From: a virus
Virus record (IMG/VR): IMGVR_UViG_3300030328_001171
Location: 1 to 25,946 of that record
Direction: 5' to 3' (one strand)
Length of the DNA stretch: 25,946 nucleotides
Shown one piece after another: positions 1-21,980 of the stretch. Made by a program: the position numbers and the translations under genes. The notes below the pieces were generated by a model, which had not been told where the DNA came from, searched no databases, and saw only the letters and a list, made by a program, of their open reading frames with translations. The first letter of the stretch is position 1, and each line of letters starts with the position of its first letter.

Positions 1-408
1 ATCATAAGCAGGATTAGGAACTTCTTGATCTTTTAAATTAACTGGTGGTATAGTTTTAGGCTTATCTTTTTGTTGTTCTACTGCATTTGCTACCTCATCA
101 TAACTTGCAATAGATGTATCAATTCCTAATCCAAGAAAGCCCATGGATCTTCCCACACTTGAAGTTTCACAATTTTCTAATGCTGATGTTTTATTAATAA
201 ATGTAGAATCTTCTTTTTCATAAGCAATCCCAGTAAATTTTCTATCAGGATTTTTAACATCAGGAATAACAGTAGTTTTAGTAATAAATCTATCTGTCAT
301 TTCAATTAACTCTGTTGTTATTGATCCATTTGGATAATCTTTATGAAATTGTTTTACTCTTTCATTTACCTCAATATAATCTTTACCCTTTATTTGTATT
401 TTCTTCAT
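1..408 (-). CDS. ERF/annealing-type recombination or ssDNA-binding protein (3' end beyond window)
   Basis: An uninterrupted frame of 136 codons runs from ATG at 408 to the left edge, so the C-terminus is missing. The start overlaps the stop of the upstream 65-aa gene (TAATG), with AGGAGA as ribosome site inside that gene's last codons. The translated block at residues 79-107 (ENCETSSVGRSMGFLGLGID, then SIASYDEVANA) matches a pattern I associate with phage single-strand annealing (ERF-like) or ssDNA-binding proteins, where an NCETSAVGRAL-type motif is typical. From residue 112 the visible part becomes lysine- and proline-rich, as in linkers of that family. By inference it acts in phage DNA recombination or replication and belongs to the early operon. 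The family assignment is from motif memory only; a different ssDNA-binding family is possible. Confidence 0.55.
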   Translation of the reverse strand, partial: MKKIQIKGKDYIEVNERVKQFHKDYPNGSITTELIEMTDRFITKTTVIPDVKNPDRKFTGIAYEKEDSTFINKTSALENCETSSVGRSMGFLGLGIDTSIASYDEVANAVEQQKDKPKTIPPVNLKDQEVPNPAYD

Positions 409-605
409 TATTTTATCTCCTCTTGATATTTAATTAATTGATATTCTTTATATTCTTTTTGATACTTGTGTGGTGACATAACTATATCTATTATGCTCTC
501 AGTAGTATCAAATTCTTCCAAATGTTCATTACCATATACTTCCTTATACCATTGTAAAAAGAAGCCAAAGTCCTCATTATTTAAATCTATTTCTTTATTT
601 GCCAT
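408..605 (-). CDS. hypothetical protein, 65 aa
   Basis: The product is small, acidic and rich in tyrosine and glutamate, with no recognised domain. Residues 10-25 (NEDFGFFLQWYKEVYG) look amphipathic, and the C-terminus carries a helical run of K, E, Y and Q. The start ATG at 605 has GGAG four bases upstream, within AATGGAGAAAC, the same short ribosome-site context found before the 52-aa gene at 783 and the plus-strand gene at 21734. The stop overlaps the start of the ERF-like gene, so translation is probably coupled. It is the middle gene of an early-type operon. Function unknown. Confidence 0.7.
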   Translation of the reverse strand: MANKEIDLNNEDFGFFLQWYKEVYGNEHLEEFDTTESIIDIVMSPHKYQKEYKEYQLIKYQEEIK

Positions 606-624
606 GTTTCTCCATTATCCCTTT

Positions 625-783
625 TTATTTGTTTTCTTCAAAATAATTTTTATGTTCACAACTTTCACACTCTATACCATCAACTATTTGGTCAGGGTCT
701 GTAAAAGCATCATTGCAATGCTCACATTCAGAGCAAAAAAAGTAAAATTCTTGAACTGCTATTTTTTGATTTAATTTTTTCAT
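625..783 (-). CDS. small zinc-ribbon-like protein, 52 aa
   Basis: The frame stays open upstream to a GTG at 819, but the ATG at 783 is preferred: it has GGAG six bases upstream, and the bases 819-784 are the conserved untranslated-looking leader also found before the gene at 21734. The protein has C17-x2-C20 (plus C23) and C39-x2-C42, a spacing that fits a zinc ribbon, separated by an acidic segment. Such small ribbons in phages often act as DNA-binding or RNA polymerase-binding regulators, but nothing here specifies the target. It is the first gene of the operon reading towards the left edge. Confidence 0.7.
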   Translation of the reverse strand: MKKLNQKIAVQEFYFFCSECEHCNDAFTDPDQIVDGIECESCEHKNYFEENK

Positions 784-819
784 TTGTTTCTCCATTGTTA
801 TTTGTTTTGTCTCACTCAC
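780..819 (-). promoter_or_regulatory. 40-nt conserved leader with ribosome site (copy 1)
   Basis: Read on the minus strand from 819, this segment is base-for-base identical to plus-strand 21698-21737. It starts GTGAGTGAGAC, ends AATGGAGAAACAAATGA, and contains the GGAG ribosome site and start codon of the 52-aa gene. Similarity fades on both sides: an AATATAT-type stretch upstream is partly shared and the coding parts differ. It is best read as a duplicated 5' leader that gives two small genes common expression. An alternative is a conserved 12-residue N-terminus read from GTG at 819. Confidence 0.7.
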
Positions 820-824
820 CCTAT

Positions 825-860
825 ATATTAAGCATAATATTTGATATATAAAACAATTAT
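825..860 (-). promoter_or_regulatory. probable promoter of the leftward early-type operon
   Basis: The AT-rich stretch just upstream of the conserved leader contains, on the minus strand, TTGTTT near 858-853 and a TTAATAT-like -10 near 834-828. The second copy of the leader, at 21698, has a much clearer sigma70-type promoter in the same relative position, which supports a start site at about the first base of the leader. The match here is weak and the exact boxes are uncertain. Confidence 0.35.
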
Positions 861-889
861 TTTATATTTTTATAATTATTTATTATTTA

Positions 890-921
890 TAGAAAAGAAA
901 AACCCTCAATTAAGAGGGTTT
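890..921 (-). terminator. rho-independent terminator closing the tail operon
   Basis: On the minus strand the RNA reads AAACCCTC, loop TTAATT, GAGGGTTT, followed by TTCTTTTCT. This is an eight-pair stem with a U-rich tail, about 40 bases after the stop of the last tail gene (963). It separates the late structural operon from the early-type operon that starts near 820. Confidence 0.85.
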
Positions 922-21662: not shown

Positions 21663-21697
21663 TTGCATTATATTATTATAAAGTTATAATATATGGT
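21663..21697 (+). promoter_or_regulatory. sigma70-like promoter of the plus-strand gene
   Basis: TTGCAT at 21663-21668, a 16-base spacer and a perfect TATAAT at 21685-21690 point rightwards. The predicted start site (about 21697) coincides with the first base of the conserved leader that is shared with 819-780. This coincidence supports both the promoter and the idea that the leader is the 5' end of the mRNA. Confidence 0.65.
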
Positions 21698-21737
21698 GTG
21701 AGTGAGACAAAACAAATAACAATGGAGAAACAAATGA
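21698..21737 (+). promoter_or_regulatory. 40-nt conserved leader with ribosome site (copy 2)
   Basis: Identical over 40 bases to the minus-strand leader at 819-780, in inverted orientation about 20.9 kb away. It contains GGAG six bases before ATG 21734. There is not one silent difference between the copies, which points to function at the RNA or DNA level or to recent duplication. Confidence 0.7.
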
Positions 21738-21910
21738 CAAAAGAAAATAAAATAACATGGAAACAAGATGGTTCAGGATACTGTCTTATAACAGAAACAA
21801 GAACTTCTTGGATTGCTACATCAAAACATGGTTCAATAAGATGTAATCCAAATATGAAAAGATGTGATAATGTTAATGTATGGAATAAAATAATACAGGA
21901 GGTGGCATAA
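21734..21910 (+). CDS. hypothetical protein, 58 aa; lone plus-strand gene
   Basis: This is the only convincing gene on the plus strand. ATG 21734 is chosen over GTG 21698 because a canonical GGAG lies six bases before it and the region upstream is the conserved leader. The product (SGYCLITETRTSWIATSKHG, then CNPNMKRCDNVNVWNKIIQE) is small and basic with three cysteines and looks like a compact beta domain plus helix; no family is recognised. It has its own promoter and terminator and interrupts the head operon, the typical look of a moron or an independently expressed early gene. Confidence 0.7.
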   Translation: MTKENKITWKQDGSGYCLITETRTSWIATSKHGSIRCNPNMKRCDNVNVWNKIIQEVA

Positions 21911-21917
21911 GCCACCT
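21900..21917 (+). other. hairpin at the stop codon of the plus-strand gene
   Basis: AGGTGGC, loop ATAA, GCCACCT: a perfect seven-pair stem whose loop contains the TAA stop, followed by TCTTAATC. It is too poor in trailing T to be a good terminator alone. It may protect the mRNA 3' end or act together with the terminator 35 bases downstream. Confidence 0.5.
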
Positions 21918-21950
21918 TCTTAATCAAGGGATAAAGGAGAACTTAATAAA

Positions 21951-21980
21951 AGAGCCACTTAATTGTGGCTTTTTTATTTT
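21951..21980 (+). terminator. bidirectional rho-independent terminator
   Basis: AGCCAC, loop TTAATT, GTGGCT followed by TTTTTATTTT on the plus strand terminates the 58-aa gene. On the minus strand the same stem is followed by CTTTTATT, so it can also end transcripts arriving from the portal-MuF genes, whose last stop lies at 21974. Head genes upstream and downstream of this point are therefore probably separate transcripts. Confidence 0.8.

Follow-up and report, generated by a model that had tools for sequence, protein, structure and literature searches.

A 40-nucleotide sequence that stands twice, inverted and identical, in the DNA of an uncultured marine phage most likely acts as a non-coding 5' leader and includes a ribosome site; it is best read, from sequence comparison, as a start module that is retained at exchangeable accessory genes. 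We put at roughly three in four the probability that it is the transcribed non-coding leader and ribosome site of early-type accessory units, with exchangeable genes behind it. The repeat and its place, the conserved ends around unrelated genes, the empty and filled versions of one locus, and the confinement of the start element GGAGAAAC to non-core genes are direct observations.

The sequence studied, referred to here as the window, is the whole of an IMG/VR virus record, 25,946 bases long. The record is classed as linear, so the phage genome it represents is probably not complete. The encoded terminase and capsid proteins resemble those of ~32-kb pelagiphages (HTVC026P, HTVC112P; about 36% and 30% identity), which, together with an A+T content of 70%, makes a SAR11-type host likely. 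Megablast of the window against cultured phages yielded no match. The relative G001 is 31.4 kb long, with ends that overlap near-identically over about 0.4 kb; by comparison with it, and judging from the gene order of L012, the window appears to lack ~5.5 kb of the early region, the part that would lie between the terminase gene and the gene at 1-408, so that any copies of the leader there fall outside the count. The gene at 1-408 (minus strand; L012:3854-4477) encodes a conserved early protein of 207 residues (PHROG 11717/23738, function unknown).

The 40-mer, GTGAGTGAGACAAAACAAATAACAATGGAGAAACAAATGA, lies at 780-819 on the minus strand (copy A) and at 21698-21737 on the plus strand (copy B) with zero mismatches, as the first-pass annotation had stated. 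The window has no other exact repeat as long (in 60 sequences simulated with the window's dinucleotide content the longest reached 18), and the 25,946-base record holds no third copy, even with 3 mismatches allowed. A repeat-finding tool calls the inverted repeat as 69 nt at 90% identity. Outside the 40-mer the two copies agree at 30 of 60 positions upstream and at 28 of 60 downstream; the downstream figure exceeds a shuffled mean of 18.7, and both copies run into A-rich coding starts. The segment had been described as ending in a ribosome site and ATG: both are present, but the identical block ends one base further on (ATGA). GGAG stands 6 nt upstream of the ATG and the leader RNA is unstructured, the window copies folding no better than shuffled sequences, which together support the suggestion that the leader aids translation. 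The proteins of 52 and 58 residues encoded behind the two leaders have no match to each other, in keeping with the claim that the coding parts are unrelated; the short third occurrence, AATGGAGAAAC, does indeed abut the ATG of a 65-aa gene at 605. Outside the window the leader is rare. The exact 40-mer has no match in viral contigs, a degenerate leader pattern has none in bacterial and archaeal genomes totalling 257 Gb, and a search for relatives by way of the two small proteins found none. Matches to a loose leader pattern in L122-L127 were discarded as unrelated sequence. A near-identical leader (36/40) does recur, in only two relatives (L003 and L032), so the lack of further copies in relatives that the first-pass annotation named as a refutation is not observed.

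Copy B belongs to a unit set antisense between two genes, one of 153 aa and one of 188 aa; the second stands ahead of the capsid gene, at the scaffold position, and is named by place only. A candidate promoter, TTGCAT-16-TATAAT at 21663-21690 (plus strand), has its TATAAT ending 7 bases upstream of the first base of the 40-mer. A consensus promoter scan by itself makes no call there, and such scans do not discriminate in DNA as AT-rich as this; the case for this promoter comes from upstream conservation. The 60 nt that precede leader B are matched at 60/60 positions in L005, 59/60 in L032 and 54/60 in L003 (where the -35 element is TTGACT), despite 10-11% divergence of the flanking gene. Behind the leader (21698-21737, plus strand) follows the gene of the unit, which we refer to as a moron (ORF at 21734-21910, plus strand, 58 aa, antisense to its neighbours). 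Its protein matches no family in Pfam, PHROGs or PADLOC, and Rfam matches nearby are at chance level. The gene ends inside a hairpin (21898-21919), taken up below. Next comes an orphan element resembling a ribosome site, AATCAAGGGATAAAGGAGAA (21922-21941, plus strand), with no gene behind it and the same in L032. The unit closes with a terminator, AGCCACTTAATTGTGGCT followed by a T-run (21953-21970, plus strand). This 18-mer is exact in the window, L003, L004, L032 and L041, twice in G018, and in G002 and G017 behind the late operon; terminators thus seem to move between loci, serving the moron in some phages and the late operon in others. Its positions in three of the genomes are G002:3534, G017:19831 and G018:25560 and 31415.

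Relatives show what happens at this place. Both neighbours can be read at 43 loci, the window counted; of these, 35 are empty (a gap of 54-81 nt) and 8 are filled (405-1059 nt); the slot of G018 is likewise filled. The filled loci of L003, L005/L014 and L032 have the reversed promoter (54-60/60) and the terminator AGCCACTTAATTGTGGCT in common with the window. The leader is kept at 36/40 in L003 and L032, and L005 has only GTGAGTGA. The slot proteins of the window, L003 and L032 are unrelated, with no BLAST match better than E 0.3. Promoter, terminator and some or all of the leader thus surround unrelated proteins, so the slot with its ends is more durable than whichever gene occupies it, and the proposal of a leader conserved as DNA in front of unrelated genes is supported. 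At L005:4127-4534, and in L014, promoter and terminator are intact and the gene between them looks decayed. The slots of L040/L042, L041/L043 and G018 hold other genes, some of them forward. The moron of L041/L043 has several genes, each opened by a AACTAGGGA(G/A)AAAC element, and its last start element is geneless and sits before the terminator, as does the orphan of the window and L032 (AAGGGATAAAGGAGAA). Orphan start elements are the expected remnant of gene loss or exchange between repeated start elements.

Copy A (780-819, minus strand) stands at the start of the early operon. Upstream of it lies a candidate promoter region (AATTGTTTTATATATCAAATATTATGCTTAATATATAGG; 820-875, minus strand) common to the region upstream of the early operon in L012/G001; its hexamers are weak and its role as a promoter is putative. 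Just upstream of that, a terminator scan finds the intrinsic terminator of the late operon, AAACCCTCTTAATTGAGGGTTT (900-921, minus strand), in whose place G002 and G017 have a terminator of the moron type. The first early gene, behind leader A (ORF at 625-783, minus strand), encodes 52 residues with CxxC pairs, by eye zinc-ribbon-like, with no family match in Pfam, PHROGs or PADLOC. The third element, AATGGAGAAAC at 606-616 (minus strand), is immediately 5' of the 65-aa gene (ORF at 408-605, minus strand), which is conserved in L004, L012 and L024; before the same gene relatives have AAAAAGGGATAAAGGAGAAACAAACA or CAAGGGATAGGAGAAAC. At the place of copy A they have differing first genes and leaders such as AAGTGAGTTAATCAATT...AACTATGGAGAAGCAATGG, and among the sequences compared the window alone has a GTGAGTGAG-type leader there. 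The two window leaders agree at 40/40 positions and copy B agrees with the same locus of L032 at 36/40, making the copying of a moron-type leader into the early locus the simplest reading, although the direction is something that we infer. The within-genome identity suggests that copying between loci was recent. In L129 (G001), L004, L007 and L130 (G002) a hairpin with an invariant GTGAG loop lies just past a candidate promoter and its stem carries compensatory changes.

The start elements have a wider distribution than the 40-mer. In 20 related contigs GGAGAAAC occurs within 20 nt of the start of 34 of 395 non-core genes and of none of 447 core genes (Fisher P 3e-12, a value that is only indicative because the genes are related to one another and their relatedness is uncorrected). 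Similar leaders make up 0.81% of pairs within genomes against 0.34%, an excess that none of 500 label shuffles reaches. That excess is real but small, with most genomes contributing little; mean leader similarity is 0.380 within and 0.371 between genomes, and strong genome-wide homogenisation is accordingly not claimed. Several genomes have a repeated start element of their own (27 nt in G017, 21 nt in G004, 18 nt in G018 and 17 nt in L041), with genome-specific forms such as AAATAAAATCAAGGGATAGGAGAAACA (G017), TAACTAGGGAGAAACAAA (G018) and TAAATGGAGAAACAAATGCAA (G004). G004 has 17 starts with GGAGAAA. Start elements also precede genes of different families in G003, G004, G017, G018 and L041. 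There is a second leader lineage, in which a different 5' element, GTGTT..AAGGGAAAC, precedes start elements (L041:149, G007:17809, G009:10620 and G018:25318).

The 3' end of the moron gene (GAG GTG GCA TAA) lies inside a hairpin, GGAGGTGGC-ATAA-GCCACCTTC (21898-21919, plus strand; RNA fold z -4.5), with the stop codon in the loop. The pattern GRAGGTGGCRTAAGCCACYTYY finds 27 stretches in viral contigs, and in 19 of 21 distinct contexts the TAA of the loop terminates, in frame, an ORF of 40 residues or more, a count in which only the frame is informative, because the pattern itself fixes the residues EVA/KVA. In nearly all, the next ATG follows 10-25 nt behind the hairpin, mostly 14-18, with a ribosome site between. 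Across 257 Gb of genome sequence from bacteria and archaea, a slightly narrower pattern has one match, at a gene whose protein is the same as that of a phage contig. A covariance model adds versions outside the pattern (L077, L071 and G004), in each of which the loop again holds the in-frame stop and a ribosome site follows, in G004 AATGGAGAAACAAATG. The hairpin GGAGGTGGCRTAAGCCACYTCC and its variants end unrelated genes in phages that differ in base composition; stop-in-loop hairpins of other kinds are rare among 2,320 ORF ends, and the sequence was not found in the literature searched. Besides the window, gene ends of this type, unrelated to one another, were seen in L032, L041, L066, L072 and L166-L191. 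A tentative proposal, to which we give slightly less than even odds, is that small accessory genes of these marine phages are exchangeable cassettes bounded by a leader or short start element in front and, behind, by the stop-in-loop hairpin and the ribosome site of the next gene, the hairpin being an undescribed viral boundary or translation-coupling element.

Could the 40-mer be coding? In both window copies the GTG that heads it shares the frame of the ATG, and this frame is open across the block there and in L003 and L032, as a shared N-terminal peptide (MSETKQITMEKQM) conserved at the protein level would have it. However, the four differences of L003 and L032 are confined to two codons and alter both residues (T to N), and the third element (606-616) is in a different frame relative to its ATG. 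L005 retains the promoter and GTGAGTGA, and its GTG frame stops within a few codons; early-operon leaders of G001 and L004, and also L007, read GTG AGT TAA at the position of the GTG. The DNA motif persists where the frame stops at once, and the broken frame in L005 and in these early-operon leaders argues against a coding block; a peptide-coding role is very improbable. The main rival to the leader model is instead that the leader is a site for a phage regulator or antiterminator, acting on the 5' end of the RNA or on the DNA past the promoter and co-controlling both units, which is possible, if rather doubtful. GTGA(G) does recur immediately behind the promoter in leaders of the early operon (G001, L004, G002, G006, G017 and G003), in L007 and in moron leaders of the group. 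In four relatives GTGAG is the loop of a hairpin of 7-9 bp, with both partners exchanged at two of the pairs (94% of cells paired), and the 5' element of another lineage differs (GTGTT..AAGGGAAAC), as ESAS differ among subclusters of cluster K (PMC3203893). Those hairpin sequences are just four, with a covariation score matched by 37 of 500 shuffles. The same place in the window copies has no stem and folds no better than shuffles, and conservation of the leader runs to the ATG, past any operator. The earlier suggestion of a regulator site is left with a hint from the hairpins of relatives and with stemless copies in the window itself.

Two further explanations were weighed. Perfect 40-bp inverted repeats bound 820-21697 and could, as the first-pass annotation proposed, be recombination sites that flip a 20.9-kb late module. 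Such an inversion would oppose capsid and tail genes to portal and terminase. At every one of the 43 junctions that can be read, the two late-gene neighbours are co-oriented. Copy B is missing from most relatives, and a search of 29 window proteins against PHROGs (the genome being incomplete) found neither an invertase nor an integrase; the claim has no support in these observations, and we regard inversion as extremely unlikely. The repeat might also be an assembly chimera of misjoined metagenomic contigs, since the window is one uncultured contig and misjoins typically fall at repeats of about k-mer length. Against this, promoter B adjoins the pre-capsid gene and the terminator adjoins the 153-aa gene in the independent contigs L003, L005, L014 and L032, and G001 also has promoter A behind the late terminator. 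A misjoin would exchange flanks and still require two copies; a chimera is highly improbable.

On the leader reading, which we prefer, copy A would open the early operon and copy B would lie within a promoter-leader-gene-terminator moron that is reversed between late genes. From a host-type promoter, RNA would be made that has GTGAG... in its 5' part and leads through an unstructured A-rich stretch to GGAGAAAC and the ATG, so that a short gene dropped behind the leader could be expressed at once. Start and end elements would persist while the genes that they enclose are exchanged, dropped or gained, probably through recombination at short shared sequences that leaves expression unbroken. The identity of the two copies might reflect one locus having recently been overwritten with, or built from, the leader of the other. 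Promoter use, timing, strength of translation, recombination route and direction of copying are what we infer in this account from the arrangement of the sequence.

The nearest precedents are the start-associated sequences (SAS and ESAS) of cluster K mycobacteriophages, described in 2011 (Pope et al. 2011, PMC3203893) and treated again in PMC12699233. SAS have a 13-bp consensus, GGGATAGGAGCCC, with at most 2 deviations and 11-19 copies per genome (PMC3203893). Like them, the repeat of the window stands a few bases before the starts of unrelated non-structural genes and includes the Shine-Dalgarno core; longer versions with lineage-specific inverted repeats exist, and the stop of the preceding gene may fall inside. 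In position the two systems agree, three window genes having the element and the two with long leaders being unrelated, and the absence of GGAGAAAC from all 447 core genes parallels the restriction of SAS to non-structural genes. In sequence they differ: the window has AATGGAGAAAC and the orphan GGGATAAAGGAGAAC in place of GGGATAGGAGCCC, and the relative G017, with GGGATAGGAGAAAC, shares just the ten bases GGGATAGGAG, a likeness that may have arisen by convergence on a ribosome site. There are 3 elements in the window (an incomplete record) against 11-19, and these are other phages with other hosts. The inverted repeat of extended SAS has no counterpart in the unstructured window leader, although G001, L004, L007 and G002 have the GTGAG hairpin, and the long version in the window is linked with a promoter and with a moron whose ends are conserved.

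There is likeness also to the PeSL (promoter-early stem-loop) cassettes of T4-type phages (Arbiol 2010, Comeau 2014), in the accounts available through PMC4503421 and PMC3950731, in which conserved early promoter/stem-loop ends surround exchanged genes; the window has terminator stem-loop, promoter and leader at 780-921. The window phage is not T4-type, however, with a terminase and capsid resembling those of pelagiphages such as HTVC026P at no more than 36% identity, and its conservation, set beside those accounts, is concentrated in the transcribed leader and its ribosome site. The copy B unit has the features of a phage moron in its own terminator and the conserved sequence of a putative promoter, its place between late genes, its absence from 35 of 43 loci and its small protein of unknown function. 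It differs in that the gene is exchanged and promoter, leader and terminator stay, which makes the slot, not the gene, the stable unit. The case is thus akin to SAS and PeSL, with a sequence of its own, and a member of neither. Empty, filled and refilled versions of the slot, with their conserved ends and orphan ribosome sites, display the outcome of gene swapping in a phage group that sequence data hold in abundance, and they make it testable whether start repeats serve expression, gene exchange or both, and the stop-in-loop hairpin provides a second, separate element that can be tested.
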